64,000 nucleotides of DNA. Source: Chitinophagaceae bacterium. GTDB lineage: Bacteria > Bacteroidota > Bacteroidia > Chitinophagales > Chitinophagaceae. The DNA lies in the NCBI GenBank assembly GCA_020847395.1, contig JADLCD010000091.1, positions 1 through 64,000 on the forward strand. The letters are read 5' to 3'. How positions within the stretch are numbered: the first letter of the stretch is position 1; each line of letters starts with the position of its first letter. Made by a program: the position numbers and the translations under genes. Shown here piece by piece: positions 6,390 to 60,766 of this stretch. Under the pieces are notes generated by a model that saw only the letters and a program-made list of their open reading frames with translations, was not told the origin of the DNA and made no database searches.

Positions 6390-6437
6390 TATAACAAATC
6401 TAAAGGCATTAATCTGAATTCAAAAATCGTACAACAG

Positions 6438-8098: not shown

Positions 8099-8119
8099 CA
8101 CCATTTTCTGCAAGCTGCC

Positions 8120-8731
8120 TTAGTCGTCTAAAGCAGGTCGCTGAAATCCAATAATTTTATCTGTCTTTGTATTATTAATCAGTTCGCTGTATTCTTCGTC
8201 TGTCAGGGCTTTTATTTCTTTTAGCCATTTCAGTTGATTTAGCCTGAATTCATAAGGAGTGTCAGGATCAAATCTTGAAAATTTATTCTTAAAGTGTAGC
8301 CTCATTGTATTGTGAATGTCCTCAATAAATGCGTTAACAGTATTTGAGTCAGGTTTTGTAGCCAATAATTCAAGCACCTTTTGTCCTCCGGTTAAATAAA
8401 TCACATCTTTATTACGGTTATAATATGCTGCAATGGTCATGATGGAAAAGAAAAGCAATGCAAACAACCAGAACAACTGGTGCTTAAACGGTTCATTACC
8501 CAACACTGAAATAATTATAAGTACCACGTAAAGCAGGTCAAATAGCAGAAAAATGTAAAAGGGAATGTTTGCGGTTTTGACGCGCTTTTTTACGGTATCA
8601 AAACCAAGCTCTTCAAATTTAATTTTATATTCAATATCTTCCCGGATATTTTTAACCTTAACAAATACACTATCACTTTCAATGAAAACTTCTTTCTGTG
8701 TAGTGAAGGTCTTTTGCTTTAGCTGTGTCAT
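8120..8731 (-). CDS. Unknown two-helix membrane protein
   Basis: The 203-residue product has a charged N-terminal domain of about 55 residues. Two adjacent transmembrane helices follow (roughly residues 55-76 and 86-104: IPFYIFLLFDLLYVVLIIIS, then LFWLFALLFFSIMTIAAYY), and then a cytoplasmic-looking C-terminal part. The C-terminus contains LNQLKWLKEIKALTDEEYSEL, which resembles the short C-terminal SHOCT-type helix pair (leucine-rich, ending in a T-x-E-E-(F/Y) turn). I do not recognise the rest. It lies 35 bp downstream of an unknown lipoprotein gene on the same strand, and the two may be cotranscribed. Confidence 0.7.
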   Translation of the reverse strand: MTQLKQKTFTTQKEVFIESDSVFVKVKNIREDIEYKIKFEELGFDTVKKRVKTANIPFYIFLLFDLLYVVLIIISVLGNEPFKHQLFWLFALLFFSIMTIAAYYNRNKDVIYLTGGQKVLELLATKPDSNTVNAFIEDIHNTMRLHFKNKFSRFDPDTPYEFRLNQLKWLKEIKALTDEEYSELINNTKTDKIIGFQRPALDD

Positions 8732-8766
8732 AATTAAGGTGTTTTAATAAAGTGGTGTGCAGCAGG

Positions 8767-9690
8767 CTACCATACAGTTGGAATAATACCCCTTACTCCC
8801 ATATCAACAACTGTTTCGCCTTTTGCAGGTTCCCACCTGCCATTCTTTTCAACCTCCTGCCATTCAAAACTTTTATTAGTAGAAACGGCCACTTCCACAA
8901 TAATATTTTTAGTTTCTTTCCCGGTTATGGTTAGTTTGCCGCCGGCAAAAGCGCCTGTAACCACGCATGAGCCAGCCGGAACAGGCGAAGTAGCAAATAA
9001 GGGATTAACAACGGTAGTTGCAGGCGCCTGTCCGAAAAGGGTATCTACCTTACTATAATCCCCGTAGCTGACATTGCTTTCAAACCCCCAGTATCCCTGC
9101 CTGCGGTTTTCATTTACACTAATAACCTGCGAATTGATTTGATATGAGCTGATATAAGTATTGTAGCCAATAAAAGAAGCAAGTGTACCGGAAAAATCCT
9201 GGTCTATATGCAGGGTATCGCCAATGGTAGTATCAACGTGATATTGTATGGTATAGTTTTGGTAAGCCAGCGAAAGACGCAGCCATTCATATTCCCCGGG
9301 GGTAACATCTTTTAAAGAAATAGCATAGAACACTTCATTGTTTCCGGCCAGAACGGATTTATCAAAGTAAATGGCAGTGTCGCCGCCCAAGGTCGTTTCA
9401 TCTGCCTTATAAATAATAGTTCCTTTGCCTAACAGCGTGGTATTTGAAGGTGCGAGCTCAATATAATGAGCGCTCATTTTGTTCACAACAGGGCTTTGCG
9501 CTCCATGATCGTCAGGCAATACAGAAGGCTGGCCCGTGTTATTTAATCTTTCCTGCAAGGAGTCGAACCTGAACCTCAAAATCAATTTTGGTTCAATAAC
9601 AGCCTCATCTTCTTTTTTACAGGAAATGATTCCCAAACACATTAATATGCAAAACAGGTAAAATTTCACGTTGTGAGATTTGTTCTGCAA
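8767..9690 (-). CDS. Unknown secreted lipoprotein
   Basis: The 307-residue product begins with a lipoprotein signal ending LGIISC, with Lys-Lys-Glu-Asp-Glu directly after the cysteine; such acidic residues are seen in Bacteroidota surface-exposed lipoproteins. The body reads as beta-rich sandwich sequence with no cysteines and many short Thr/Asp/Gly turns. No catalytic motif or named domain is recognisable. A surface or periplasmic lipoprotein is the safe description. Neighbours give no functional hint: an unknown membrane protein follows and the SDR/altronate dehydratase pair precedes, on the same strand. Confidence 0.72.
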   Translation of the reverse strand: MQNKSHNVKFYLFCILMCLGIISCKKEDEAVIEPKLILRFRFDSLQERLNNTGQPSVLPDDHGAQSPVVNKMSAHYIELAPSNTTLLGKGTIIYKADETTLGGDTAIYFDKSVLAGNNEVFYAISLKDVTPGEYEWLRLSLAYQNYTIQYHVDTTIGDTLHIDQDFSGTLASFIGYNTYISSYQINSQVISVNENRRQGYWGFESNVSYGDYSKVDTLFGQAPATTVVNPLFATSPVPAGSCVVTGAFAGGKLTITGKETKNIIVEVAVSTNKSFEWQEVEKNGRWEPAKGETVVDMGVRGIIPTVW

Positions 9691-9736
9691 ACGAAATTAG
9701 CTTTTCAAAAATTGCTTTGCAATAAAAGAGGAGCTA

Positions 9737-10510
9737 TCAATTATTTAATTTAACAAAACCTCCATCAATCGGGTAATCGCAACCGGTAATAAAAGAGGCT
9801 TCGTCTGAGCAAAGATACAATGCGAGATAAGCAATTTCTTCAGGCTTTGCCATTCTTCCTATTGGTTGCGTTTTAGAAAGCTTTTCGAACATTTCCGCTT
9901 CTTTACCGGCATAATTTTTAGCAAGAAACCCATCTACAAAAGGCGTATGCACCCGTGCCGGCGAAATTGCATTGCAGCGGATATTGTACTTAATATAATC
10001 CCTCGCTACAGAAAGCGTCATGGCTGCTACTGCTCCCTTAGCGGTTGAATAAACAAATCGGTCAGGTATACCTACAAGCGCCGCAATAGAAGCCATATTT
10101 AAAATAGAACCACCTTTTTCTTTCATAAAGGGTATTGCTTCGTGCAGGCAATTGTATACACCTTTAATGTTTACAGATACAATACGATCAAAATCCTCTT
10201 CATTGGTATTATCTGCCTGCCCTATATGAGCAATGCCGGCATTATTTACCAGTATGTCAACAGTACCGTGTTTGGCGGCTATTTCGCCCATTACCTTTTT
10301 TACATTTTGCTGGTCGGCAACGTTACATTTATAAAATGTGGCTTTACCACCGGCATCAACAATTTCCTGTGCGGTTGCGCCACCACCTTTTTCATCCATA
10401 TCAAGCACATATACCTGCGCACCCTGTTTAGCAAACACTGTTGTAATTGCTTTGCCTATTCCACTTCCCCCGCCGGTAATAATGGCAGTTTTGTTGTTAA
10501 GTCTGAACAT
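9737..10510 (-). CDS. SDR-family NAD(P)-dependent dehydrogenase
   Basis: This is a 257-residue classical short-chain dehydrogenase. The Rossmann glycine motif is TGGGSGIG (residues 12-19) and NNAG is at 89-92. The catalytic triad is Ser141, Tyr154 and Lys158 (Y-S-T-A-K), and the C-terminal ITGCDYPIDGGFVKLN is typical. Asp37 at the end of strand beta-2 (VLDMDE) suggests a preference for NAD over NADP. It lies downstream of an altronate-dehydratase-type gene on the same strand with a 128-bp gap. That context suggests a sugar-acid pathway, for example oxidation of a 2-keto-3-deoxy sugar acid or of an aldose (inference); the substrate cannot be read from the sequence. Confidence 0.88.
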   Translation of the reverse strand: MFRLNNKTAIITGGGSGIGKAITTVFAKQGAQVYVLDMDEKGGGATAQEIVDAGGKATFYKCNVADQQNVKKVMGEIAAKHGTVDILVNNAGIAHIGQADNTNEEDFDRIVSVNIKGVYNCLHEAIPFMKEKGGSILNMASIAALVGIPDRFVYSTAKGAVAAMTLSVARDYIKYNIRCNAISPARVHTPFVDGFLAKNYAGKEAEMFEKLSKTQPIGRMAKPEEIAYLALYLCSDEASFITGCDYPIDGGFVKLNN

Positions 10511-10638
10511 TCGGATTTAAAATTTGAAATTTAAGATTTGAGATTGGGCAGGTTGCAAGTTATGAGTTACAAATTCAACGTCTCTAATTACCGCAAATCC
10601 CTAACCTGGAACTTGACACCTGGAACTTGTAACTTTCA
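10511..10638. repeat. Low-complexity intergenic repeat patch
   Basis: The 128 bp between the SDR and altronate dehydratase genes consists of short near-repeats. Variants of AAATTTRA/ATTTGAGATT lie at 10514-10545, and variants of AACTTG-type words (AGTTATGAGTTACAA, CTGGAACTTG, TGGAACTTGTAACTT) occur on both sides. No promoter or terminator is evident. Similar word-like patches occur between genes elsewhere in this window (31097-31152). Confidence 0.45.
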
Positions 10639-47045: not shown

Positions 47046-47115
47046 TACGCTTGCTATAACATTCGTGTTTCTACAAATTTAGCTTTAAAGGCATAGTTTA
47101 GAGCGGAAGTGATAA

Positions 47116-47661
47116 CCCCTGCGGAATTATGGAAAAGGATTTGGCAGGCGGAACATACTTGATATGAGACGATTTTACCTTGCTTATCAGAAATGGCAGG
47201 CAGTGCCTGCCAAATTGAGTTGGACACATTTTGTAACGCTACTTGGCGTTTCAGACGATACTGTAAGAAAGTTTTACGAGAAACAAACTACGCTTGAAAA
47301 CTGGGGTTATCGTGAATTGGAAAGACAAATTGATTCTTCCCTGTTTGAACGGCTTGCATTGAGCAAAGACAAGAAAGGCGTTTTGCAACTTTCGGAGAAA
47401 GGACATATTGTTTCTAAGCCTACAGAAGTAATTAAAGACCCTTATGTTTTAGACTTTCTGAAAATACCGCAAAGCCACCGAATGACCGAGAAAGCCCTTG
47501 AACAAAAAATTATTGATAATCTTCAAATGTTTTTGCTTGAATTGGGAAAAGGTTTTGCCTTTATAGCAAGACAATATAAAATCTCGCTTCGCAATAAGCA
47601 TTATTACATTGACCTTATTTTCTATCATCGTATTCTAAAATGCTTTGTACTGATTGATTTG
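47116..47661 (+). pseudogene. YhcG/DUF1016 nuclease, left part (split and 5'-truncated)
   Basis: The open frame reads NYGKGFGRRNILDMRRFYLAYQKW, FYEKQTTLENWGYRELERQIDS, TEKALEQKIIDNLQMFLLELGKGFAF and DLIFYHRILKCFVLIDL. This is the DUF1016 N-terminal domain followed by the start of the PDDEXK-type nuclease fold (DLIFYH and the CFVLIDL strand). The match begins about 50-60 residues inside the family; before it an in-frame stop lies at 47113-47115, so the 5' end was lost independently. After Leu at 47659-47661 the frame runs into the mobile element and adds a foreign LCCTQHNRSYVV tail. An intact 178-residue protein from the ATG at 47164 can be read but would lack both ends of the family. Confidence 0.82.
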
Positions 47662-47682
47662 TTATGTTGCACCCAACATAAC
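47661..47682. repeat. 22-bp palindrome at the left end of the element
   Basis: GTTATGTTG, loop CACC, CAACATAAC: perfect 9-bp arms. It lies between the left nuclease flank and the 48-bp terminal repeat and has no counterpart at the right end, where only one base separates the repeat from the flank. It carries the TTATGTTG word that is also in the terminal repeat, so it may be a recombinase binding site or a terminal remnant. Confidence 0.7.
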
Positions 47683-47730
47683 AGGTCTTATGTTGTGTAA
47701 GCAGTTATGTGCTGTTGAACTGCTATTTTG
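47683..47730 (+). repeat. Left terminal inverted repeat
   Basis: The 48-bp sequence begins AGGTCTTATGTTGTGTAAGC and ends TATTTTG. Its reverse complement lies at 60444-60491; the outer 35 bp are identical and differences fall at three inner positions. A further inner inverted copy of GCAGTTATGTG (47701-47711) lies at 47763-47773. Confidence 0.9.
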
Positions 47731-47782
47731 TACAATGTAGCCAGTTACAATTTTTTTACCAACACATAACTGCCATTGTTTT

Positions 47783-48793
47783 TTATAAATTTTCCAAAAA
47801 GGCCATCAGTCCTTTGTCATCCCGCCAGTGTGTAGCGTTATTGTTTCCCTCGATTTCACAACATGCTAAGGCTCTTGCCTTCATTTCCATGTCAACCTCC
47901 GCATAGATATTGGTCGTATTGATTGATACATGCCCTAGCCAGGCTCTGATTGTATTCATATCTACACCTGCCTGAAGCAAGTGTGTTGCTGTTGTATGCC
48001 GTATGGTATGAGGACTGACTTTCTTTTGCTTGATTTCAGGAAACTCTTCTGCCACTTGTTTGGCGTACCTTTTTACCATTGCATGGATGCCGAAGCGGGT
48101 GATGGGTTGTTTAAGCCGATTTAAAAAAAGATGATCCTGTGATGATCGCAGGGAAGCTATTGAGTCAAGCTCCAATGCGGTTTGTTTCCATAAAGGGCAA
48201 CGCCGGGCCTTATTCCCCTTTCCTCTGATCAATACAGTAGCCACATTTCCTTTTGATGCTCCTTCTATGCTCAAGTCGCTTATTTTAACCTGAGCAGCTT
48301 CATCAGCGCGAGTACCCGTGTTATAGAGAAAAAGTAAAAGTATATAGTCTCGTCGTCCCTGACTATTTTGCCTGTTTGGTGCATTTAATAGTGCATCCAT
48401 TACCGGTTTTTCAAGATAAGTGATCAAAGTGTGCTTTGCTCGTTTAAATGGAATCATTTGAACTTGCCGACACCATTCCACGTACTCCGGATTGTGTAAT
48501 CCAACAAATTTGGCAAAAGCATGGATTGCGGCGAGTCGCTGGTTGCGGGTAGTAACCGAACAACCCCTAGTCGTTTCAAGTTCGTTAAGGAAAGCTTTAA
48601 CGACAGCGTGATCAATTTGCTCTACCAGCAGTTTGTCGATAGTCTTTTTAGTTTTCTTTGCGGCAAAAGGCAACAATAACCGGAAGGTATCCCGGTAACT
48701 TAACTGGGTATTTTTTGACAGGTTTTTGATGCTGATCAAATATTCCAACAAAATGCGTTTTATCCAGACGCCTATAAATGATATGTCTTTCAT
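47783..48793 (-). CDS. ritC: Tyrosine recombinase, third of the trio
   Basis: The 336-residue product has a core-binding SAM-like domain (ISIKNLSKNTQLSYRDTF, about residues 15-100) and a catalytic domain. The catalytic residues are Arg in YNTGTRADEAAQV, HxxR in SPHTIRHTTATHLL, His in WLGHVSINTTNIY and the nucleophile Tyr in that last motif. All are present, so it is probably active. Its ATG overlaps the stop of the second recombinase (ATGA, 48790-48793), giving translational coupling. As last gene of the trio it ends 53 bp from the left terminal repeat. Confidence 0.9.
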   Translation of the reverse strand: MKDISFIGVWIKRILLEYLISIKNLSKNTQLSYRDTFRLLLPFAAKKTKKTIDKLLVEQIDHAVVKAFLNELETTRGCSVTTRNQRLAAIHAFAKFVGLHNPEYVEWCRQVQMIPFKRAKHTLITYLEKPVMDALLNAPNRQNSQGRRDYILLLFLYNTGTRADEAAQVKISDLSIEGASKGNVATVLIRGKGNKARRCPLWKQTALELDSIASLRSSQDHLFLNRLKQPITRFGIHAMVKRYAKQVAEEFPEIKQKKVSPHTIRHTTATHLLQAGVDMNTIRAWLGHVSINTTNIYAEVDMEMKARALACCEIEGNNNATHWRDDKGLMAFLENL

Positions 48794-49734
48794 GATTTTT
48801 GTGTTTTAGTGTATTCTTCAAAACGGGCGCTTGCCTCCTGTAAAAGATCACTCGTCATGCTGAGATAAACAGAAGTGTGAGCTAATTGGCTATGCCCCAT
48901 GTAAACTGATAGTATCGGTAGTAACTGCTGAACGTCTTTGTTTTCCCGATACCAGTTCAACAGCACGTTAACAACAAAAGTATGCCTCAGATCATGTAGC
49001 CTTGGCTGGAAGTGGGCACGATCTTCTCGCCTTATTCCTGCATTCTTCCTTATCCTTTCGAAGATGCCCCGAAGTGTATCCGCGTAAAACGGTTCACCAT
49101 GCTGGTTTAAAAACAAATAGGCGTTAACCTGTTGCGATTGCTGATGTTCCTTACGCCATTGATGGAATTTTTTCAAGAGTTCTTTTACCTGCTGATTGAA
49201 TGGTACCAATCTCGATTTATAGAATTTCGATTGCTGGATCGTGACGACCAGGTTGTTCATATCAATATCACCTAGGGTAATAGACAATGCCTCATTAACT
49301 CTCAGCCCCAATGTATACATCAACACAAGAGAAGTTTGAACCATATAAGGTTCAATATGGCTTTTCAATTTTTGATAGGTCATTGCTCCATCAAAAAGAA
49401 GTTTCAGCTCCTGTTGCGAATATATGTACGGCACAAGGCCCTGGGGACGCTTTGGTAATGTCTTCGGCAGTGGCATTCTTGTCACATAGTTCCGAGTTAT
49501 TGCGTACCGGTATAAGCCTAAAAGCACAGTGTGCTTAACGAACCATCCTGTGGTTACTGTATTAGATTTTCCATAAAGGAATCGATGTACCATTTTTTCT
49601 GTTACAGAACCGATAGCCTTTTCCGGCCCAACTGCCGAACAAAAAGCCTTTAGGCAAGTCTCGTTCGATTTGAACTTTTCGCCAAGCGATTTTCTATAAT
49701 GCACATATTGAGTGACTAATTGATACAGTTTCAT
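48790..49734 (-). CDS. ritB: Tyrosine recombinase, second of the trio
   Basis: The product has 314 residues from ATG 49734 (MKLYQLVTQYVHYRKSLGEK). This start is supported by a GGGAGG Shine-Dalgarno 7 nt upstream and an ATGA overlap with the first recombinase; the longer frame would begin with TTG at 49749. Catalytic residues: Arg in MYTLGLRVNEALSI, HxxR in LHDLRHTFVVNVLL, His in YMGHSQLAHTSVYLS and Tyr in the same motif. The spacing between HxxR and the late His is long, with an inserted YRENKDVQQLLPIL, as seen in RIT second recombinases. Confidence 0.9.
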   Translation of the reverse strand: MKLYQLVTQYVHYRKSLGEKFKSNETCLKAFCSAVGPEKAIGSVTEKMVHRFLYGKSNTVTTGWFVKHTVLLGLYRYAITRNYVTRMPLPKTLPKRPQGLVPYIYSQQELKLLFDGAMTYQKLKSHIEPYMVQTSLVLMYTLGLRVNEALSITLGDIDMNNLVVTIQQSKFYKSRLVPFNQQVKELLKKFHQWRKEHQQSQQVNAYLFLNQHGEPFYADTLRGIFERIRKNAGIRREDRAHFQPRLHDLRHTFVVNVLLNWYRENKDVQQLLPILSVYMGHSQLAHTSVYLSMTSDLLQEASARFEEYTKTQKS

Positions 49735-51344
49735 AATAAGCCCTCCCAATTTTGTTCAGCAACCTTGCGAAGATTTACCAAGTCTACTTTTGTATAGATC
49801 CGTGTTGTTTCTAGCTCCTGATGTCCGAGGTGGTCGCTGATTTCTTTTAAGCAAAAGCCTTCATTAATTAAATGGGTTGCGCAGGCATGCCGCAATGCAT
49901 GAGGGCCAAGATGTTTGATTGGTAGAGAGAGTGGTTTAAGCCTTCTATTGACAATGGCGTAGATTGCTTGGGCAGTCAAGGGATGATACGGCGAACGCCG
50001 GGCGATAAACAATTCTTTCGATCTGCAATGCGATGGTCTTACTTCCTTCAGGTACCTCAATATTGCTTCTCCAACAGTTTTGGATAGCGGGAAGATTTGT
50101 GGTTTTGACCTTTTTGCCCTTCTTAAATAAATCTGCTCATTTTTCCAATCAATATCTTGCAACTTCAACCCAGCAACCTCGCTTCTGCGCATCCCATACA
50201 CTGTAAGCAGTAGTAAGATTGGATAATCTCGGATATCTGTAGAATAGTCCGTTTGACTATTAGCCACCAACTTTTTTACATCTTCCCAATGTGGCGCGGA
50301 AGGAAGTGTTTCGTAACGATAAACTCGGGGGGACTTAATAGAAGTAGCGATTCCCCTTTGACACCATTTTTGATTCTCGGCGTATCTTAAAAAAGACCGG
50401 ATTACCGACGCATATGATTGTACAGACCTTCTGGAGTATCTATCCACATCGTATTTCATTGTCAGCACCTCGTCGACTGTGCCCGGTAAAATAGCTGCAA
50501 ACGTCTGCACCCGCGTGCTTATAAGAATCAAAAAATTCTTCAACAATGAAGTCCGTATATAAATAGTTTCTTCTGCAAGACCCTGTTCTTGCAACATGTA
50601 TTCCAAGTATTTATCCAAATACTCCTGGAATGGGGTGGCTGGTTTCGGGTCTTCCATTAAACAGCCTAACATTTTAAACCAGTTTACAGCATAATAGATG
50701 AACCGTCTTTGGGAGAATTTGGAATAATTGTTATTCCGTCGAACGACCATTTTGTTTGTAGCCCATTTTTGTGCGGCGTCATTAATCTCTTGGATGGACA
50801 TCAAGCGAATGCTATAGAACTTCAGAAAATCCATAATAATCAACAGGTAGGTGGCAATTATACGAAGAGAACCATCTTTAGCTTTTAGATCAGCCCTATG
50901 CTGCAAATACTGTAGACGCTCGTTCAATAACGGGGCAGATGTATGGCGCTTGAGGGCGTGCCTTCGCTCAAATAGATGATTGAACAGAGAGATTTGACCC
51001 TCAGAGGGACAGGCTAAATGATTGATCCTTTTTAACCAGTTTATGGCAATTGATGTGAACTTCTTTCTACCCGATGGGGAGACTCTTTTTTTCTGCTGAT
51101 GATGATGTGGCGACTTTGACCAGGCTGTTGCTGCGTGTTCGATATCGTCAATCGTAACAATTTCATCCTTTTCCAAGCGAAGGAACTGAACAATCCGCAA
51201 AAGGTATTCTGCAGCAGTCTTCAGCGTACCATGGCTACATCCTTTGTCTGCCAGATACTGTAGGTGTTCTTCTCGCTCTTTTAGCAGCGGCGCTTCCAGG
51301 TGTTTATTTAAATAATAAGTACGCCTGATTAATTGTTGTAGCAT
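49731..51344 (-). CDS. ritA: Tyrosine recombinase, first of the trio, with duplicated N-terminal domain
   Basis: The 537-residue product has a C-terminal catalytic domain with Arg in LTVYGMRRSEVAGLKL, HxxR in GPHALRHACATHLI, His in HLGHQELETTRIY and the nucleophile Tyr in that motif. The N-terminal 220 residues contain two copies of a ~100-residue unit. Copy 1 (about 18-115) starts APLLKEREEHLQYLADKGCS and continues to SIAINWLKRINHL; copy 2 (about 135-225) starts APLLNERLQYLQHRADLKAK and continues to YYAVNWFKMLGCL. A normal core-binding domain follows (FQEYLDKYLEYMLQEQGLAEETI). Start ATG 51344, with a perfect AAGGAGG 6 nt upstream. It overlaps the second gene by 4 bp. Confidence 0.9.
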   Translation of the reverse strand: MLQQLIRRTYYLNKHLEAPLLKEREEHLQYLADKGCSHGTLKTAAEYLLRIVQFLRLEKDEIVTIDDIEHAATAWSKSPHHHQQKKRVSPSGRKKFTSIAINWLKRINHLACPSEGQISLFNHLFERRHALKRHTSAPLLNERLQYLQHRADLKAKDGSLRIIATYLLIIMDFLKFYSIRLMSIQEINDAAQKWATNKMVVRRNNNYSKFSQRRFIYYAVNWFKMLGCLMEDPKPATPFQEYLDKYLEYMLQEQGLAEETIYIRTSLLKNFLILISTRVQTFAAILPGTVDEVLTMKYDVDRYSRRSVQSYASVIRSFLRYAENQKWCQRGIATSIKSPRVYRYETLPSAPHWEDVKKLVANSQTDYSTDIRDYPILLLLTVYGMRRSEVAGLKLQDIDWKNEQIYLRRAKRSKPQIFPLSKTVGEAILRYLKEVRPSHCRSKELFIARRSPYHPLTAQAIYAIVNRRLKPLSLPIKHLGPHALRHACATHLINEGFCLKEISDHLGHQELETTRIYTKVDLVNLRKVAEQNWEGLL

Positions 51345-51350
51345 GATTGT

Positions 51351-51357
51351 CCTCCTT
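51351..51357 (-). promoter_or_regulatory. Perfect Shine-Dalgarno before the first recombinase
   Basis: AAGGAGG (minus strand) lies 6 nt before the ATG at 51344. Bacteroidota genes normally lack such a site, and the cargo genes of this element also lack one. The second recombinase has GGGAGG as well. This suggests the recombinase module has a different origin from the cargo, or needs to be translated in many hosts. Confidence 0.75.
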
Positions 51358-51512
51358 TTCTTCCAAAAGGTAAAGAGGATTGATTAACAACTTATTTCGC
51401 TAACGTTGTTTAATGTATGTTTTGATATAACTATTCAATCTTCTTTCATTGTTTTAACAGTGCGAAGATTGACACTACTTTTTCAATCTTTCGGGAAAAC
51501 CGTCACCTGGAA

Positions 51513-52481
51513 TCATTCATGTTTTAAATCGATCTTACCGGTCTCATCCAAACCCGCCCTTAACCCCTTTGCTAATAGTGCAGCGTTTCCTACACCCCAA
51601 TAATGCAGAAAGAAAATTTTTGGTTCTTCGTGTACCATGTGGTTGTGAACTGCTACTACTTCAATCCCATTTTCAACTAATGCTTTAATTACAGGCGCTA
51701 CTTCGTTTTCCAACATGGTAAAGTCTCCACATACTGCTGCTTTTTCAGGCGAACCTTGCCAAGCAGCCCAGGTATTGAAGCCCATAAATGTGCTTACAGG
51801 TATACCATGTTCCAGTAACTGAATATCGGGTCTGCCAATGGTATATTTATAAACTCCTTTGCTTAATTCACCTTTTTTACCAACGATAGAATCCAGTGTG
51901 GCAATATTCAATGTATTTATAGCACTATCCGCTTTTGGAGATTTTGGATCAACACCCCGCGACGCTGTTACCTTATCAAATATGGCTTTTACACCATTTG
52001 CCAATGTCGTAACATCTGAAGTCCGATCAATATGCATATACATTACATTAGGGTGGTTACGTACAAAATGATTGTGAATAGCAGTGATGGAAAATCCCTG
52101 ACGTATGACCTCTGCCTGTACTGGTTTCAGATCTGTTTCTGTAAGAATAATATCGCCCATAACCATCGCGCTGTCTCCACAAGGGGTAAATGCCGCCCAA
52201 CTACTTAACCCCATTGGCGGAATTATTTTAAAACCGTCAACAACAATCTTAAGATCATTTTGCGGTATGGTTATTTTATACTCACCTTTTTTTTCGGTGC
52301 CCTTCATTCCGGTTAACTGCTCAATCTTTGCAATATCTAGTCTGGTGCTGCCCGGCGCACATTTAATGGGTACGCTTTTTGCATGAGAAGAATCTGGAGT
52401 TGGCGCTGCAGATTTGGTCTGTTGTTGATTGCAGGAATAAAATATTATGCCTGTCAATATAATGATGAAAGCCTGTTTCAT
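51513..52481 (-). CDS. Lipoprotein with two DUF1259 domains
   Basis: The 322-residue product has a lipoprotein signal ending FYSC (Cys about 17) followed by NQQQTKSAA. Two copies of the DUF1259 fold follow. Copy 1 (about 45-165) has KKGEYKITIPQND, MGLSSWAAFTPCGDSAMVMGD and ITAIHNHFVRNHPNVMYMHI; copy 2 (about 185-315) has GVYKYTIGRPDI, FMGFNTWAAWQGSPEKAAVCGD and VVAVHNHMVHEEPKIFFLHYWG. Each copy has a conserved H-N-H plus a later His, suggesting a metal site (inference). The function of DUF1259 is unknown. It sits 56 bp downstream of the efflux adaptor gene and ends the cargo operon. Confidence 0.85.
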   Translation of the reverse strand: MKQAFIIILTGIIFYSCNQQQTKSAAPTPDSSHAKSVPIKCAPGSTRLDIAKIEQLTGMKGTEKKGEYKITIPQNDLKIVVDGFKIIPPMGLSSWAAFTPCGDSAMVMGDIILTETDLKPVQAEVIRQGFSITAIHNHFVRNHPNVMYMHIDRTSDVTTLANGVKAIFDKVTASRGVDPKSPKADSAINTLNIATLDSIVGKKGELSKGVYKYTIGRPDIQLLEHGIPVSTFMGFNTWAAWQGSPEKAAVCGDFTMLENEVAPVIKALVENGIEVVAVHNHMVHEEPKIFFLHYWGVGNAALLAKGLRAGLDETGKIDLKHE

Positions 52482-52537
52482 AATTTATTGTTTTATGAGT
52501 GTTTGAAATGGTGTTCAAATCTTGTACCTGATATTGT

Positions 52538-53662
52538 TTATTTTGAAACGGCAGCAATCACTTTTGTTCCTGTTTTTAACTCCTCGTTCCCTTTTACTGC
52601 AATCGTATCTCCTGCTTTCAAATCCCCAAATATTTCCTGTTTTTCACCCATATTAAAGCCCGCTCTCACATCTATCCATTGAGCAGTATCGCCCGATATT
52701 TTAATTACAAACTTTCGTTCCAATGTAGTTGCCACTGCAGACACAGGTACAATAAATGAAAGATTGGAACGAACAAAATTGAACTTTACATCTGCATAAC
52801 TTCCAGACTTCAACTCGCCGGTAGGATTAGGCACTTCAAATTCCCAGATTTCACTGCGGGTACTGTTATCAATACTGCCCGATTTTCTTACCAGCTTTGC
52901 ATTATATTTTTTGTCAGGTAAAGAGCGGGTGGTTAGTTCGCCAACATTATTTGCCAATATAGCATTTGTATAGATTTCAGGGACGGCAACCTGCAACCTT
53001 AATGCCGTATTATTTTCCAATTCAAACAAGGGTTTTTCATTCGGGTTGCCAACAAATGAGCCTACCACAATATTTCTTTTAGTGATGATTCCGTTATAAG
53101 GCGCAATGACGGTTAAATATTTTCCAATTTGTCGGTACGATGATGCTGCTAACACAGCCGCATTGTAATCCGAACTATCCGCCAACATTTTATTTTTTGT
53201 GCTTTCCAGTTCAGATGGTGCGATTACACCATGACCCTTTGAAGCGGTATTTATGCGTTCGAAATAATCTTTGCTTGAAAGATAACGTGAGTAAGCTGTT
53301 TTTACTTTTTCGTTTAACTCCTGCACACGTGTATTAATTTCAGGCGCATTTATCCATGCAAGCACTTGTCCCTTCATCACCCTTGAACCAATATCAACAT
53401 TCAGCTTTTTAATATACCCCTGCACTTTAGCCCTTATTTCAGCATTTTCATTGGGCAATAATTCACCCGGTAATGCAATGGATTTCTTTGCAGAATCTTT
53501 ATGCAACAAAAAAGCTTTCAAGGAGTCTGGTTTTGCCTCTTTCTTGTCCGCGTTAAACACTTGTTGCTGTTGTTGATTGCAAGAGATTACAATAACCGAA
53601 AGCATAATTAAGACTGACAAAACTTTCGCCGGTGGTGATATACAGTTAACTATTTTTATCAT
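52538..53662 (-). CDS. RND efflux periplasmic adaptor (membrane fusion protein)
   Basis: The 374-residue lipoprotein begins MIKIVNCISPPAKVLSVLIM and has lipobox VIVISC. The frame extends to 53683, but ATG 53662 fits the signal better and overlaps the RND stop by 17 bp. The MFP architecture is complete: a barrel-sandwich half with LPGELLPNENAEIRAKVQGY, an alpha-hairpin (about 105-165), the second half GKYLTVIAPYNGIITKR, and a membrane-proximal domain ending ELKTGTKVI. It links the RND pump to TolC. No His/Met-rich metal site is seen, which argues against a copper/silver adaptor of the CusB type. Confidence 0.9.
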   Translation of the reverse strand: MIKIVNCISPPAKVLSVLIMLSVIVISCNQQQQQVFNADKKEAKPDSLKAFLLHKDSAKKSIALPGELLPNENAEIRAKVQGYIKKLNVDIGSRVMKGQVLAWINAPEINTRVQELNEKVKTAYSRYLSSKDYFERINTASKGHGVIAPSELESTKNKMLADSSDYNAAVLAASSYRQIGKYLTVIAPYNGIITKRNIVVGSFVGNPNEKPLFELENNTALRLQVAVPEIYTNAILANNVGELTTRSLPDKKYNAKLVRKSGSIDNSTRSEIWEFEVPNPTGELKSGSYADVKFNFVRSNLSFIVPVSAVATTLERKFVIKISGDTAQWIDVRAGFNMGEKQEIFGDLKAGDTIAVKGNEELKTGTKVIAAVSK

Positions 53663-56600
53663 AAAACAAAGATTGTTCATCATTGGGGTCTAATGATATA
53701 CTGGTTGATTCTTTATTTCCTATTATTAAATTGTAAGCCATTGGTAAAAGCCAAAGGCTGCATAATACACTAAAGAACAAGCCGCCAATAACGGCAATAG
53801 CAAGTGGGGCAGTTTGTTTTCCAGTTTCTCCAAAACCCAATGCCATAGGTATCATTCCGGCAATCATGGCTACATTTGTCATAATGATTGGTCTAAATCT
53901 GTTTAGGGCAGCCTCAGATCCAATTGAAGCAATCTTGTTGTTTGCTTTTGAACTTATTTGTTCTGCAGCCGATACCAGCAAAATGGCATTTGCAACAGCA
54001 ACTCCAAGCGCCATAATACAACCCATAAATGACTGAATATTTAAGGTGTTCCCGGTAAGCCATAACAATAGCATAGCGCCAGCCAGTACACCGGGGAACA
54101 CGGATAAAATGGTTAAAGACAACCGAAATGATTGAAAGTAAGCTGCCAGCATTAACCATATCACCAATGCCGCCAACAACAAACCGATTGATAATTCGCT
54201 TATGGTCTGTTCTAATACTTGTGATTGACCACGCAAATAAACTTTTACACCCTGTGGCATTTCACCCGATTGCGTTATCATTTTTTTTACTGCATCTATT
54301 GCATTTCCTAAATCTTTATGATAAACGTTTGCTGTTATGGTAATGAACCTTTGCTGGTTTATGCGATCATATTCGCCAATAGAATTTTCCTTTTTCCACT
54401 CCGCAACATCCCGCAGATACACCGGATTTCCATCGTGTAGGCCAACGGGAATTTGTTCTATTTGTTCAGGGCTATTCATTGCCAATTGTGGATATTCAAC
54501 CTGTACCTGGTAGGATGTACCGTTTGTTTTATCTACCCAATATACAGGCTGCGTAAACCTGCTTGATGAAGTGCCTTCTGTAACAGAACGTGCTGCCTGG
54601 TCTACCGTTAAACCCATTTGCCCTGTTCTGATTCTATTATAGTTGATTTGTATAGTAGGATAATCCAATGGCTGAGCAATCTGCAGATCGCGAAGAAAAG
54701 ATAAGCTGTGTAATGATCGCTTTAACTTCTCTGCAATATCTCGGCTTTGTGTAAGATTTTTGCCTTGTATTACAACCTCAATGGGATTGGTTGAACCAAG
54801 GCTCATCAACTGATCTACCATATCTGCCGGCTCAAATGAAAGTGTAGCATCCGGAATTTCTTTTGATACAGATTTTCGTAAATCTTCCTGTAGTTTTTCT
54901 ATGCTTATGCCGGCATTTTTAACAAGGTTTACTTTTGCTAATGCTTCATGAGGCCCACTTGTATATAAAAAAATGGAATTGATAGCGTAGGTTGGCGGTT
55001 GAAGCCCAACAAAAGAAGAAGTAATACCAACCCTACTATTGCTTGCTTCGTTTATCAGTTGAAGTAATTTTTTTGTGGCATCTTCTGTACGCTCAATTCG
55101 TGTACCCACAGGCATCCTTAAACGCACCTGCATTTGTCCCGCATCAATTTTGGGAAATATTTCTGTGCCACAGCCCTTGTACGCCACATAAGCAAGCCCT
55201 GTTAAAAACAGTATCAATATCGGCAATAATACGTTTTTTCTTTTATCAAGCTTGCCAATGCTTTCACCAAGCTTTCGTTTCATTTTTTCCAATCTATCAT
55301 TTTCAACAGATGGCATTCCTTTTATTATCCAATTAGCAAGCACGGGTACCAGTGTTTGCGAAAGCAGGAATGATGAAATCATTGAAAAGCCAACTGAAAT
55401 TGAAAGTGGTAAAAACATTGAGCGCGGCACGCCCGACATAAACAATGCAGGTACAAACACTGCCAAAATACTAAGAAGTATTAATAATTTTGGTGTTGCT
55501 ATTTCCTGGCATGCATCCCAGATAGCTCTCGCCCTGGTCTTCCCAAGTTCAAGATGGTGATGAATATTTTCTATTGTTACAGTAGATTCATCCACCAATA
55601 TACCTATCGCCAATGCTAAACCACCAAGCGTCATAATATTGATGCTTTGACCAGTTAAATAAAGACAAATAACAGCAGAAAGAATTGCCAAAGGAATATT
55701 TATTACAACTATCAAAGCACTACGCCAGTTTCTTAAAAACAATAGTACCATCAAACCAGTTAACAAAGCGCCTAATGCGCCTTCAATCAATAAGCTTTTA
55801 AGCGAATTAACTACATAACCAGATTGATCAAATTCATAGGATACTTTAATGTCGCCTGGTATAGCAGCCTGCATATCGGGCAATGATTTCTTTATTGATT
55901 CAACCACATCCCAGGTAGATGCATCTGCCCTTTTGGTTACAGGAATATAAACAGATCGTTTACCATTAATAAGCGCATAGCCGGTTGTTACATCGGCACC
56001 ATTATCAACTGTAGCCACATCTCTTACCAATATGGCGGTACCGCTTACATTTTTAACTGTACTTGTTTCCAGTTCTTTAAAATTATCTACAACACTGTTA
56101 GAAGATGTAATAACGGTTTTATCTCCCACACGGATATTTCCTGCCGGAAGAATGGTATTGTTTTTTGCGATTGCTGTCACCAATTCATCTGCCGTTATAT
56201 TATAACTTCTCAATCTTTCCGGATCGGCTTTTACTAAAATAGAACGCTGGTTACCCCCAAAAGGAGGAGGTGCAGAGACGCCAGGCAACGCAGCAAACAC
56301 TGGTCTTACTTTGAATAAAGCCAAATCCTGTATTTCATTTAGCGATCTTGTTTCGCTGCGAAATACCAGCTGACCAACGGGTACAGAACCCGCATCATAT
56401 CTCATTACAAACGGAGGAAAAGTTCCGGGAGGCATGAAAGAGCGGGCACGAGTTGAATAAGAAATGACTTCCGCCATTGCATTTGCCATGTTTGTTCCTT
56501 CGTGAAATTGCAGTTTGATCAAAGCAAGCCCTTGTATGGATTTGCTTTCTACAGCTTTAATACCGGTGATATACAAAAAGTGATATTCATAATAAGAGGT

Positions 56601-56792
56601 AAGAAACCCTTCCATCTGTTGAGGCGAAAGACCGCCATAAGTTTGCGCAACATAAATAGTAGGCACATTCAATGATGGAAAAATATCAATGGCAGATTTG
56701 CGCACAGCAAGTATAGAGAATACAACAATTGCCAGCACCAATACCATTATTGATATTGGTTTACGGAGAGCAAATTGAATGAGCCTGATCAT
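53646..56792 (-). CDS. RND efflux permease (HAE1-like)
   Basis: The 1048-residue product has the full 12-helix RND layout with two large periplasmic loops (starts ALRKPISIMVLVLAIVVFSI; second repeat from ALVIWLMLAAYFQSF). The TM4 proton-relay motif reads LAIGILVDESTVTIENI (about 395-411): the Asp-Asp of AcrB-type pumps is Asp-Glu here, and the CzcA-type metal-pump pattern is not present. An organic-compound pump is therefore more likely than a heavy-metal pump (inference). The gene is 6 bp from the tolC gene upstream and overlaps the adaptor downstream. Confidence 0.92.
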   Translation of the reverse strand: MIRLIQFALRKPISIMVLVLAIVVFSILAVRKSAIDIFPSLNVPTIYVAQTYGGLSPQQMEGFLTSYYEYHFLYITGIKAVESKSIQGLALIKLQFHEGTNMANAMAEVISYSTRARSFMPPGTFPPFVMRYDAGSVPVGQLVFRSETRSLNEIQDLALFKVRPVFAALPGVSAPPPFGGNQRSILVKADPERLRSYNITADELVTAIAKNNTILPAGNIRVGDKTVITSSNSVVDNFKELETSTVKNVSGTAILVRDVATVDNGADVTTGYALINGKRSVYIPVTKRADASTWDVVESIKKSLPDMQAAIPGDIKVSYEFDQSGYVVNSLKSLLIEGALGALLTGLMVLLFLRNWRSALIVVINIPLAILSAVICLYLTGQSINIMTLGGLALAIGILVDESTVTIENIHHHLELGKTRARAIWDACQEIATPKLLILLSILAVFVPALFMSGVPRSMFLPLSISVGFSMISSFLLSQTLVPVLANWIIKGMPSVENDRLEKMKRKLGESIGKLDKRKNVLLPILILFLTGLAYVAYKGCGTEIFPKIDAGQMQVRLRMPVGTRIERTEDATKKLLQLINEASNSRVGITSSFVGLQPPTYAINSIFLYTSGPHEALAKVNLVKNAGISIEKLQEDLRKSVSKEIPDATLSFEPADMVDQLMSLGSTNPIEVVIQGKNLTQSRDIAEKLKRSLHSLSFLRDLQIAQPLDYPTIQINYNRIRTGQMGLTVDQAARSVTEGTSSSRFTQPVYWVDKTNGTSYQVQVEYPQLAMNSPEQIEQIPVGLHDGNPVYLRDVAEWKKENSIGEYDRINQQRFITITANVYHKDLGNAIDAVKKMITQSGEMPQGVKVYLRGQSQVLEQTISELSIGLLLAALVIWLMLAAYFQSFRLSLTILSVFPGVLAGAMLLLWLTGNTLNIQSFMGCIMALGVAVANAILLVSAAEQISSKANNKIASIGSEAALNRFRPIIMTNVAMIAGMIPMALGFGETGKQTAPLAIAVIGGLFFSVLCSLWLLPMAYNLIIGNKESTSISLDPNDEQSLFYDKNS

Positions 56793-56798
56793 TTTGCA

Positions 56799-58184
56799 TT
56801 ATCTAATTTCATTAAGAAAAATATTTTCATCACCATTAATTGCAGTCTGTAGTAACAATGCTTTCCACGCATCCCAATGTGCTTTTCTTACATCCAGTTC
56901 AGCCTTTAATAAATTGAACTGCGCCTGCATCAGATCTGCAAAACTTACCAACCCTGTATTATACCTCATCTGCATGGCGCCAAAAGCATATCTTCCGGAT
57001 GCAAGTTGATTTTCTGTTTCAGTAGATATAGCCATATTACTGTTGAAAGCTGCATTGGCAACATTTCGTTGCGTATTTAACACCAATTTGCTATCCGCTA
57101 ATTTTTCCTGTGCAGCTTTTGATATTAATTGCTGTTGTTGCAACTGTCTTCTTACTTCTCCGTATTTCATGATAGGAAAGGCAATCTGCAAACCAGCACC
57201 ATAGTTATAACGGTTTAAGCCAAGTCCATCCCATGTTTTTATATCACCCGAGGCTTGAAAGGCTGACCCCCGGGCAAAGCCTGTAGCCCAAACATTTAAT
57301 TTAGGCAGGTATGATTTCTTTAATAACTGTTCCTTTGACTGACTTAGCAATAGCCGGTTTTGACCGGTTTTCATTATTGGAACATTTGAAAAAGATGTAT
57401 CTGTATCAGAAGCTTTTACTGGCAAAAAACTTAAAAAACTTGTATCAGTTGGCGCGGGCAAAGCATTGCAGATAATTAACTGCTGTAATAGCAACTGGTT
57501 TATCTGCAATTGTTTTTGGGCATTCAGCAAATCAATTTTTGCTTTTGCTAATTCTGATAAAAACAACGCAGTGTCTACCCCCGGCTTGGTGCCAGCATTT
57601 GTGAGTATACGGCTTTGGTTTAAATTGGTCTGTGTTCTTTCAATATTTTTTTGATGAATGCTAACAACGTCATATGACAACAACAAATCAAGATAAATGC
57701 TGATGACATTTATTTTATGCTGAAACAAAGACTGCTGCCATTCTGATTTTTTTGTATTTGCTTCTGCTATTGAAGTGTTGATCTCCGCATTGCGCTGTCC
57801 AAATGTTATAGCCTGCCAGTTTAATAAAAGACTTGCTGCACTGCCTGTTCCCGGATCGTATCTATTGTTTAAAGAGGGAGGACCAGACATTGGCAATATT
57901 CCATTGGGATAAAAGATACCAATAAGATTGTTAGCAGTTCCGAACCCAGCTTGATAGCTTACATCTATTGAGGGCATTTTACTATATTTCACAACATCGA
58001 CACGCTTTGCTGCAGCTTCCGCTTCCAATTTATTACTTGTCAACAAAGGGTACCGCTCAATAGAAAGTTGAACGGCATCTTTTAAACTTATCAAGGTGTC
58101 CTGCTGTGCCTGAACTAAAGTACAGGGAGAAATCAATAGTGCTACACACCAATTAAACAGTATGATTTTTAAAGATCGAATCAT
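56799..58184 (-). CDS. TolC-family outer-membrane efflux protein
   Basis: The 461-residue product has a signal peptide (CVALLISPCTLVQAQ), then DTLISLKDAVQLSIERYPLL and two long alpha-hairpin repeats with barrel strands, for example AGFGTANNLIGIFYPNG and YGAGLQIAFPIMKYGEVRRQ. The C-terminal signature YRFGAMQMRYNTGLVSFADLMQAQ-like segment is present (in the form ASGRYAFGAMQMRYNTGLVS). It forms the exit duct of the pump. It lies 60 bp downstream of the sensor kinase gene. Confidence 0.9.
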   Translation of the reverse strand: MIRSLKIILFNWCVALLISPCTLVQAQQDTLISLKDAVQLSIERYPLLTSNKLEAEAAAKRVDVVKYSKMPSIDVSYQAGFGTANNLIGIFYPNGILPMSGPPSLNNRYDPGTGSAASLLLNWQAITFGQRNAEINTSIAEANTKKSEWQQSLFQHKINVISIYLDLLLSYDVVSIHQKNIERTQTNLNQSRILTNAGTKPGVDTALFLSELAKAKIDLLNAQKQLQINQLLLQQLIICNALPAPTDTSFLSFLPVKASDTDTSFSNVPIMKTGQNRLLLSQSKEQLLKKSYLPKLNVWATGFARGSAFQASGDIKTWDGLGLNRYNYGAGLQIAFPIMKYGEVRRQLQQQQLISKAAQEKLADSKLVLNTQRNVANAAFNSNMAISTETENQLASGRYAFGAMQMRYNTGLVSFADLMQAQFNLLKAELDVRKAHWDAWKALLLQTAINGDENIFLNEIR

Positions 58185-58244
58185 ATCGGAGGGTAAATAT
58201 GATTCAAAGCTAAAGCCTGATTTTGGAGAAATTTAGACAGTATA

Positions 58245-59510
58245 TTATGCGAAAGTTACCGAAATGCGATGCCAATCGTTGTCATAAGAATATGTTGCTG
58301 TAAACTGGTATAAATTGCATATCTGCCTAACCAATGCAAGCCCTAGCCCGGTAGTTTTTGTTTCGTGAGAACCTTTTTTAAACCGTTCAAACAATTCATC
58401 TGGGTTAATGGTAAGAGAAGAACCGGTATTTTCTATCAATAGGTTAGATTGATTTAAAGTTATTTTAATTTTCCCCAACGGCTTATTATGAACAATTGCA
58501 TTTTTAAGAAGATTGGTAACCATTATGTCAATCAGAGAGCGGTTTGCATTAAGCATTACATCGTCTTTAATATTCATAGTAGTTTCTGGAAAATCATCAT
58601 AATGATTTTTAAATTCAGCAATAAGTTTTTTGAGTAGCCCCGACAGATTAACCGATTCTGTTTCCGGGAACTGGTTATTTTCAATTTTTGCCAGTAACAA
58701 TAAGATCCGGTTCATTTGGCTTAAACGGTTATTAGCTTCTGAAATATCTGCGAGCAAAGAAGCATTTCGTTCAGTAAGATTGGGTTGATTAATGAGTAAT
58801 TCCAGCTTGGATCGAATAATTGCCAATGGTGTCTGCATTTCATGAGATGCATTTTCTACAAACTGTTTTTGATTATGGTAAGCAGTATTAGTATTGGCAA
58901 CCATTCCTTCAACAACCTTATTTAACTCATCAAACTCTTTTGTACCAGTTTCAGAAGGCAATTTCACCGATTGGCTTTTTGTGACATCAAAATCATCTAA
59001 TTTTTGCATGGTAGAAAAAAACGGTTTCCACAATGCACGAGAGCTTATTTGGTTTAGAACCACAATCGCTATTAATAACAAAAGCAGTATAACTGCCTCT
59101 GTTGTAAAAACTTTAATAACCAAGTGCGAAATTTCCCTGGAAGAAGTATAAGTAGTAAGCAGGTAGTTTTCATTATTCCATGAAAGCTTTTTAGTAAGCA
59201 TTGTAAAAGGCAAAGACTTTTTTCCTACTTCGTAATACAACACGGTATCCATGGGTTCATCAACCACATTATGCAAAGCTCCTGCTTCTTCAACAATATC
59301 GTATTCCCCTTCAATATGTTTTTCAATGTTACCTGCTTTATCAACAAACGCCTTCCAGATGTTCATTTGTTTTAAAAGCAATTGTTTCTCTTGCATATGC
59401 TGTGTATGCATTCTCAGCATAACAAAGAAGATACCAGAACAGATCAATAACACTACAGGTAGCCACACCAACAAAAACCGCGTGTTTCTTTGAAGCAATT
59501 TTATACTCAT
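58245..59510 (-). CDS. Sensor histidine kinase
   Basis: The 421-residue membrane kinase has TM1 at about 11-33 and TM2 at about 135-153, with a periplasmic sensor loop of ~100 residues between them. The dimerisation/H-box is FVENASHEMQTPLAIIRSKLELL (phosphorylated His223). The ATPase domain has the N-box NLLKNAIVHN and G-box TTGLGLALVRQICNLY, and the F-box ELFERFKKGS is present. Its start overlaps the stop of the response-regulator gene by 4 bp (ATGA). It probably senses the pump substrate or envelope stress and controls the efflux operon. Confidence 0.92.
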   Translation of the reverse strand: MSIKLLQRNTRFLLVWLPVVLLICSGIFFVMLRMHTQHMQEKQLLLKQMNIWKAFVDKAGNIEKHIEGEYDIVEEAGALHNVVDEPMDTVLYYEVGKKSLPFTMLTKKLSWNNENYLLTTYTSSREISHLVIKVFTTEAVILLLLLIAIVVLNQISSRALWKPFFSTMQKLDDFDVTKSQSVKLPSETGTKEFDELNKVVEGMVANTNTAYHNQKQFVENASHEMQTPLAIIRSKLELLINQPNLTERNASLLADISEANNRLSQMNRILLLLAKIENNQFPETESVNLSGLLKKLIAEFKNHYDDFPETTMNIKDDVMLNANRSLIDIMVTNLLKNAIVHNKPLGKIKITLNQSNLLIENTGSSLTINPDELFERFKKGSHETKTTGLGLALVRQICNLYQFTATYSYDNDWHRISVTFA

Positions 59511-60181
59511 ATGGTTAATTTATAGCCCAGACCGTACACTGTTTGAATGAGGTCTTCACAACCTTTGTCTTTAAGTTTTTTTTTCAGATTTTTTACATGC
59601 GAATAAACAAAATCAAATGATGGCATATTGTCGGTTTGGTCTCCATAGATATGTTCGGCAATGGCCTGTTTGTCTACAACGCGGTTTTTATTATTCAGCA
59701 AATAAGCAAGCAAATCATATTCGTTTTTAGTAAGTGCAACAGAACGATCGTTGTATGTTACAGTACGTGATGAAAGATTTACTTTCAGGTTACCCACTTC
59801 CAGTATGTCAACACCTTTTGTATATTTCCTGCGGATTAGGGCTTTAATGCGGGCATTTAGTTCAGACAAATGAAACGGCTTTGTGAGATAATCATCTGCT
59901 CCATAATTTAAGCCGACTATTTTGTCATCCAGGGAATCTCTCGCAGAAATAATTATCACGCCATCATCCTTTTTACTCTTTCGTAGATCTTCCAACAATT
60001 TAAGACCGCTGCCGTCAGGCAGGTTGATGTCAAGAATTATACAGTCGTAGTCAAAATAATCAATTCTTTTTATAGCATCGGAATAGGTTGCCACGCCCTC
60101 GCAACGAAAGTCCTCCTGGGTAAAATATTCCAGTATACTTTGTAGCAAACTGTGCTCGTCTTCTATTACCAGCAGTTTCAT
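59507..60181 (-). CDS. OmpR-type response regulator
   Basis: The 224-residue product has a receiver domain (phospho-acceptor Asp51 in CIILDINLPDG; conserved Lys101 in YLTKPF; early acidic pair E7-D8-E9) and an OmpR/PhoB winged-helix domain (VNLSSRTVTYNDRSVALTKNEYDLLAYLLNN, VYSHVKNLKKKL, IQTVYGLGYKL). It is the first gene of the cargo. The ~260 bp between it and the right terminal repeat (60182-60443) must carry the operon promoter; I see no clear TAnnTTTG box and no other feature there. Confidence 0.93.
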   Translation of the reverse strand: MKLLVIEDEHSLLQSILEYFTQEDFRCEGVATYSDAIKRIDYFDYDCIILDINLPDGSGLKLLEDLRKSKKDDGVIIISARDSLDDKIVGLNYGADDYLTKPFHLSELNARIKALIRRKYTKGVDILEVGNLKVNLSSRTVTYNDRSVALTKNEYDLLAYLLNNKNRVVDKQAIAEHIYGDQTDNMPSFDFVYSHVKNLKKKLKDKGCEDLIQTVYGLGYKLTI

Positions 60182-60443
60182 GGATTAATTTTGGGGCTAA
60201 TTTATAAAGCAAATTTGGAGGAATTTGGATAAAATCCGGCGTTATACAGTTGAGTAAAAGGAATAAACGTTCATTTTGATAAGTTACGCAATGTAGCGAT
60301 AAAAGCAGGGAGTGCGATTGCTTTTGCCATTTTGACTATTTCATTCTACCGAATGGAAAAATTAATTTTTCCAGTTTATCCATTGTAACTTAAATGTCTA
60401 ACGGTTATGTAATTCCGACAATACACAAAGTAATATAAATCAG

Positions 60444-60491
60444 CAAAATAATAGTGCAACAGCACATAACTGCTTACACAACATAAGACCT
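60444..60491 (-). repeat. Right terminal inverted repeat
   Basis: This is the reverse complement of 47683-47730, ending one base before the nuclease frame resumes at 60493. The outer 35 bp are identical to the left copy. Unlike the left end, no extra palindrome separates it from the flank. Confidence 0.9.
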
Positions 60492-60492
60492 C

Positions 60493-60744
60493 AAAATAAG
60501 AAAAGTTGAACATGGCGACATCGGACAAATGAACCTTTATCTGAGCTACTTCAAAACCGAAGAAAATGTTGAGGGCGACAATGAGCCTATTGGCATTATT
60601 CTTTCAGCCGAGAAAGGCGAAATTTTAGTTGAGTTTGCAACCGGTGGAATTTCAAACAAAATCTTTGTTTCAAAATATCAACTTTATTTGCCAGATAAAA
60701 AACAATTGCAGAAAAGAGTAAAAGCATTCATGGACGAAAAGTAA
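60493..60744 (+). pseudogene. YhcG/DUF1016 nuclease, right part
   Basis: The frame from AAA at 60493 reads KIRKVEHGDIGQMNLYLSYF and EPIGIILSAEKGEILVEFATGG, then the family-typical ending FVSKYQLYLPDKKQLQKRV. This is the C-terminal half of the DUF1016 PDDEXK nuclease domain, including the G-Q-M-x-x-Y helix. The left part ends at 47661. A 71-residue protein from the ATG at 60529 could be read but would be only a fragment. Confidence 0.85.
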
Positions 60745-60766
60745 CTTAATACAAAAGATTCATTCT

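Follow-up and report, generated by a model that had tools for sequence, protein, structure and literature searches.

The window analysed here is a 64,000-nucleotide stretch of a Chitinophagaceae bacterium (assembly GCA_020847395.1, contig JADLCD010000091.1, positions 1 to 64,000), and it contains a recombinase-in-trio (RIT) unit of 12.8 kb at 47662–60492, in which three tyrosine recombinase genes and a sensor-controlled RND efflux operon lie between the same inverted ends. The account that we favour, at a rough probability of 0.7, is that a RIT took up the efflux operon between ritA and the ritA-side end and reached its present place, inside a YhcG-family nuclease gene, through a site-specific exchange across a 6-bp spacer, and that the cargo travelled with the trio. 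The anatomy of the unit, its exact borders, uninterrupted homologues of the nuclease gene, an end layout common to other RITs, and sibling elements with a palindrome at either rit side are all read directly from the sequences compared. Comparison stretches that were fetched are designated by L numbers, and genomes by G numbers.

Anatomy of the element and its insertion site

The trio genes are adjacent and on the minus strand, and encode RitC (47783–48793, 336 aa), RitB (48790–49749, 319 aa with the listed TTG start) and RitA (49731–51344, 537 aa), with overlaps of 4 bp (RitB/RitC) and 19 bp (RitA/RitB, TTG start as listed). Pfam placed a Phage_integrase domain in all three proteins, each of which matched its own counterpart in RITs of other phyla in the order A-B-C (judged by similarity, not by a tree), and the putative tyrosine-recombinase motifs Arg, His-x-x-Arg and Tyr were readable in each. 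RitA is of the long form, and an AlphaFold2 model (7 sequences, pLDDT 76, pTM 0.39) predicts three successive helical modules ahead of the catalytic domain, consistent with the tandem core-binding domains expected of a RitA; by fold, its best solved match was XerA. An earlier sequence-only reading of this DNA had named a RIT-type element with three overlapping tyrosine recombinases, and open reading frames, Pfam and inverted ends agree with it.

The terminal inverted repeat (IR) arms, at 47683–47730 and 60444–60491, are 48 nt long and 94% complementary, with 12,713 nt between them, and the runner-up among 49 inverted pairs in a 15-kb scan measured 34 nt at 74%. The near-perfect 48-bp repeats described by the sequence-only reading are therefore present, but their outermost 5 bp (AGGTC/GACCT) are spacer or target sequence, and once these are removed the true element limits become 47688–60486, with the left repeat at 47688–47730 (tip TTATGTTGTG) and the right repeat at 60444–60486. 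The tips resemble those of other RITs. Between the nuclease gene and the element sits a 20-bp palindrome absent from the earlier reading (47662–47681; TTATGTT-GCACCC-AACATAA, with 7-bp arms and a 6-bp centre), termed "mini" and regarded as a second core site. It is separated from the left tip by an inner spacer, M (47682–47687; CAGGTC, reverse complement GACCTG), and the whole is bounded by outer spacers L (47656–47661, GATTTG) and R (60487–60492, GACCTC), both of which are in-frame Asp-Leu codons of the nuclease. The ends of the unit read, in order, GATTTG-TTATGTTGCACCCAACATAA-CAGGTC-TTATGTTGTG...CACAACATAA-GACCTC.

The interrupted gene, of the YhcG/DUF1016 family, lies on the plus strand, with its left part at 47164–47661 (YhcG_C and DUF1016_N by Pfam; 5' end already gone) and its right part at 60493–60744. 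When the flanks were rejoined, one open frame resulted, yielding the same protein with either spacer and identical at 228 of 249 residues (92%) to the uninterrupted homologue L070, which upholds the earlier view that the split gene gives exact borders. Uninterrupted homologues from the same genus matched the left part at 93% (L070, genome G395) and 85% (L071, G239) amino acid identity, and a further homologue in the window's own genome (L079) at 63%. At the border, L070, L071 and L079 read CTGATAGACCTTAAAATAAG, CTGATAGACCTAAAAATCAG and CTCATAGACCTCAAAA, respectively, and the window reads CTGATTGATTTG to the left of the insert and GACCTCAAAATAAG to the right. The sequence-only reading had suggested looking in relatives for empty copies of this gene; since the similarity of L070 and L071 to the window is confined to the gene (47128–47657 and 60486–60748), they provide uninterrupted homologues and not an empty orthologous locus. 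The shared Met is preceded by 95 open codons in L070 versus 16 in the window (region 47100–47170), and the nuclease gene, being without its 5' part, is therefore not one broken solely by RIT insertion.

End layout in other RITs and a proposed route of movement

The end motifs resemble those that RITs of Pseudomonas, Cupriavidus, Rickettsiales and Bacteroides carry. The common order is outer spacer, 7-bp arm, 6-bp centre, arm, inner spacer, element, outer spacer, with the palindrome just outside one end and separated from the repeat tip by 6 bp, and this layout recurs among the RITs of Pseudomonas, Cupriavidus, Paraburkholderia, Caballeronia, Rhizobium, Mesorhizobium, Bacteroides, Lachnospiraceae and Desulfosporosinus, as well as in Rickettsiaceae (one end only). 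Inverted repeats with an overlapping palindrome flanking RITs have already been described (PMC3414803), and the palindrome as such is therefore not new.

Spacers were compared in 19 elements from a scan that selected for near-palindromic arms and for a similar tip together with a matching far end; a spacer match was not required, as a partial one had been in an earlier end scan. The count leaves out alternative inner ends where one element had several (outermost kept), and also palindromes distant from element ends and judged to be chance (L017, two rows; L028; L036 right; L052 first row; inner rows of L057, L117 and L118), repeats of one place (L057 of L117, L059 of L119, L062 of L127) and second copies (L118, L120, L126). 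L024, L021 and L017 fitted the earlier scan, failed the later filters and stand outside the 19, and the non-fitting L043 and L051 are included. The reverse-complemented inner spacer equalled an outer spacer at at least 5 of 6 bases in 14 of the 19 elements, compared with a mean of 0.95 and a maximum of 7 matches when spacers were shuffled among elements (20,000 shuffles). Apparent inverted repeats can include target sequence where RITs sit in transposase motifs (L060, L061, L018, L021, L066, L067); these targets read as conserved stretches within transposase genes, presumably of IS66 and IS21 type, names that come in part from annotation.

Three sibling sets keep the palindrome centre and carry it on opposite rit sides: the ritA side in L119 and the ritC side in L120; the ritC side in L024 and the ritA side in L025; and the ritA side in L065 and L115 and the ritC side in L057 (the same place as L116). 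A palindrome fixed at the ritA side was considered and is ruled out by these siblings. With identical flanks, L057 compared with L065 and L115 reads plainly as a reversed element whose palindrome faces the same target side, and the flanks would also allow inversion in place. For L024 and L025, the TTCTCGATCAT shared on the other side supports the same target side with the element reversed, and for L119 and L120 the same target side is suggested by just nine bases (TTCTCGTTG), six of which are the spacer. The spacers appear to keep a record of element history: the outer spacer TCATTT of L120 is the inner spacer of L119, and L125, with outer spacers ATCAAG and inner spacer GTCGAG, is matched by L126, with inner spacer ATCAAG and one outer spacer GTCGAG. 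Separately, L057 (plasmid pMspAR02c of Mesorhizobium sp. AR02) is a RIT nested in another RIT, splitting the ritB of its host element.

From these ends we lean, with less assurance than for the insertion itself, towards a route in which RitA, RitB and RitC would recognise and bind arms of the TTATGTTG type, producing a circle. The circle junction would read IR-[x]-arm-S-arm'-[x']-IR, where S is the centre, and would be one large palindrome, so that x and x' would be equivalent 6-bp crossover sites of opposite polarity. If either site, x or x', crossed over with a target whose spacer polarity matches, the element could be inserted in either orientation, after which the 20-bp palindrome, a half-core always at one end, would remain on one side, the same side of the target. 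The circle would supply one of the outer spacers and the target the other, and the inner spacer would be the unused one, a trace of the previous target. We infer the circle, the roles of the three recombinases and the activity of the element. In the nuclease frame, each of GATTTG, GACCTG and GACCTC reads as Asp-Leu, as it would if the element had previously resided in nuclease genes of this kind; on this route the design would carry operons, here an efflux pump moving among nuclease genes.

The cargo, its rarity among RITs and its likely role

All nine genes of the element are open and on the minus strand. Between ritA and the ritA-side end, the six cargo genes (about 9 kb) encode a lipoprotein with two DUF1259 stretches (51513–52481; Pfam and a DUF1259 search), an RND periplasmic adaptor (52538–53683), an RND permease of 1048 aa (53646–56792; also compared with solved structures), a TolC-type outer-membrane factor (OMF; 56799–58184), a sensor histidine kinase of the PorY family, above the NCBIfam cut-off (58245–59510), and a response regulator with a C-terminal DNA-binding domain (59507–60181), the last five by Pfam and NCBIfam. 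The two-component system, pump and DUF1259 lipoprotein named by the sequence-only reading are thus confirmed by Pfam, inside the inverted ends.

To place this size among RITs, 58 trios were taken from the window, L016–L068 and L111–L130 after removal of ten second looks or copies (some copies were kept, e.g. L120, L112 and L126, and L123 repeats a place in L064), and size was defined by the shortest straddling inverted repeat with a score of at least 20. Such repeats were scorable in 42 trios, 40 of which span 3.35 to 4.9 kb; the other two are L068 at 8.2 kb and the element of the window at 12.8 kb. Large cargo is thus rare among RITs, with two of 42 scorable trios above 4.9 kb by shortest repeats, a finding that these counts support. 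By its outer repeats (4880–10511), L058 measures 5.6 kb, with a toprim gene at each end.

L068 lies in Aminobacter aminovorans plasmid pAA02 and, extended as L173, measures 8.7 kb between 1.1-kb terminal repeats. It shares with the window a trio with cargo and the same palindrome-and-spacer layout (TTATGTT-GAACTG-CACATAA; spacers L = M' = R = TCGGTC), and differs in having an SLC13 permease and a K+ channel on the ritC side and a toprim gene at each end. RITs with cargo are therefore not limited to the window. The sequence-only reading had foreseen a new vehicle of transfer; given this second example, the unit is not unique. In the portions of the open-licence literature covered, we found no RIT whose inverted ends enclose cargo. 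The toprim-bearing RITs of Mesorhizobium (L058) and Aminobacter (L173) both adjoin a strawberry-notch gene.

The permease scored under the cut-off of all 15 NCBIfam models listed, and the solved chains nearest to it, ZneA, MdtB and CusA, had similar scores. In 11 other genomes of the genus, its best full-length match was 59% identical and one partial match of 494 residues reached 63%; for DUF1259, a search of three other members of the genus gave no match at E ≤ 1e-60. Both results fit a cargo that came from outside the genus. A family-wide DUF1259 search listed 24 places besides the window's own, from which 20 stretches were fetched. A chromate-transporter homologue lay within 2.5 kb of DUF1259 in seven of these, and a permease of at least 65% identity stood beside DUF1259 in only two (L152, L157). 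L152 has the same order of response regulator, histidine kinase, OMF, RND permease and adaptor, followed downstream of the adaptor by a ChrB-like gene, a chromate-transporter homologue and a 714-aa gene, then DUF1259. L157 has the RND permease, adaptor and DUF1259 gene in one strand order, with a 340-aa gene between the last two, and ends at a contig end. In contrast to the window, neither stretch as fetched has a RIT match, and both have extra genes between adaptor and DUF1259. On a Pannonibacter plasmid, a chromate-transporter homologue lies two genes upstream of DUF1259.

In these relatives the operon and DUF1259 are associated with chromate genes, and a role in metal or oxyanion export therefore appears more likely than the drug resistance first proposed; the most probable substrate is a metal, an oxyanion or some related toxic compound. 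The L152 cluster at 3468–8236 (RND pump, ChrB-like gene, chromate transporter, 714-aa protein, DUF1259) is, as a separate observation, a lead for a role of DUF1259 in metal resistance.

Competing explanations and known systems

Several results count against the entry of a cargo-carrying RIT as proposed. The window IR occurs nowhere else in its own 5.17-Mb, 190-contig assembly, and in genome searches covering samples of the family and phylum, RitA was found at E ≤ 1e-40 in one of 394 family genomes, the window's own (none in the 393 others), and at E ≤ 1e-30 in five of 395 phylum genomes including its own, the other four matches being partial at 30–33%; on plasmids there was no DNA match to the unit. 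The further insertions of the 12.8-kb unit that the sequence-only reading had proposed to look for were thus missing from every set searched, and since no second copy of the unit was found, we only infer that cargo and trio moved together. Straddling repeats could not be scored in 16 of the 58 trios, including L017, L024 and L025, whose ends are readable by hand. The spacer rule fails in five of the 19 elements (L043, L049, L051, L119, L125), only L119 and L125 being explained, post hoc, through a sibling copy, and the window's inner spacer differs from R by one base. An attempt to map the RIT/cargo breakpoint found similarity upstream of ritA no better than in shuffles, and the cargo could have joined after integration.

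The single copy, together with a mismatch of about 6% between the IR arms and a nuclease gene damaged at its 5' end too, would suit a defunct island in which ends and trio are relics and the unit is immobile. All nine genes are open, however, and the putative tyrosine-recombinase Arg, His-x-x-Arg and Tyr are readable in all three Rit proteins; we consider such an island unlikely.

A little less likely still is that the nuclease gene was first invaded by an ordinary RIT of about 3.6 kb and the pump operon came later by another route, its placement being accidental. This possibility means that the split gene does not, as had been claimed, prove insertion as one unit. It draws on the 40 of 42 scorable trios at or below 4.9 kb and on sources that seem to differ, the closest operons coming from the host family and the closest RitAs from Legionella, Rickettsiales and Parachlamydiaceae. 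Yet no repeats of a second mobile element bound the cargo (in a scan that listed the longest pairs and families only), the element retains both of its near-identical ends, of which the cargo-side one has a spacer that fits the nuclease gene, and a second RIT with cargo exists. That the 20-bp palindrome belongs to target sites, as hairpins chosen by RITs, has in its favour that RITs sit in conserved motifs of nuclease and presumed IS66-/IS21-type genes (the latter named in part from annotation) and that a palindrome flanking RITs has been described (PMC3414803), but was rejected as highly improbable since uninterrupted nuclease genes are without it and the centre stays the same when copies of one element lie at different sites.

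In a pattern-based search (37 loci), RitA relatives were 54% identical in Legionella waltersii, 52% in a Rickettsiaceae metagenome-assembled genome (MAG), 44% in a Parachlamydiaceae MAG and 38% in Bacteroides. Another search gave 53% on a Candidatus Megaera plasmid and about 38% on Pseudomonas and Mesorhizobium plasmids. The closest RitAs (L020, L021, L016, L022) thus come from Legionella, Rickettsiales and Parachlamydiaceae, which we take to be mostly intracellular groups, and this hints at exchange among amoeba-associated bacteria. A RIT search of 299 Pseudomonadota genomes matched only G800, the centre genome itself, and one of viral contigs gave two weak loci.

As in published RITs, the element in the window has three overlapping tyrosine recombinases in the order A-B-C, terminal IRs and a gene-inactivating insertion (PMC3414803, PMC2864759, PMC8138268, PMC10214605), and its end motifs are like those of the RITs compared here. 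It differs in size, 12.8 kb with a six-gene operon against about 3.5 kb (PMC3414803), and in the three predicted N-terminal helical modules of RitA, against the two core-binding domains given in PMC8138268; archetype recombinases are 315 to 410 aa long (PMC10214605). Islands of Acidithiobacillus ferrooxidans (21.4 and 94.9 kb) list RitABC as recombinase module together with accessory genes, but are bounded by direct repeats at tRNA-Arg and comM, and the tabulated data mention no RIT IRs enclosing the cargo (PMC10322971). The Tn554 family and SE/GInt elements share several tyrosine recombinases, target specificity and cargo, and SE and Tn554 also 6-bp spacers or footprints, whereas the sections covered of PMC10214605 and PMC5385486 make no mention of a palindromic second core site that goes with insertion in both orientations. 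Among the proteins of the window element, which has three recombinases, none was named TnpC as in Tn554, and no fourth gene was named that would complete the four conserved genes of SE/GInt (including Tfp/GinC and Srap/GinD); no dedicated profile search was made for either.

RITs have so far been treated as small elements of unknown mechanism, and in a 2023 tabulation their movement and empty sites are entered as not tested (PMC10214605). A RIT that encloses a two-component-controlled pump, together with a second that carries transport genes, adds a gene-transfer vehicle, and the structure of its ends predicts a circle junction, two crossovers, reversible orientation and a spacer memory, and supplies a sequence rule by which RIT borders may be located.

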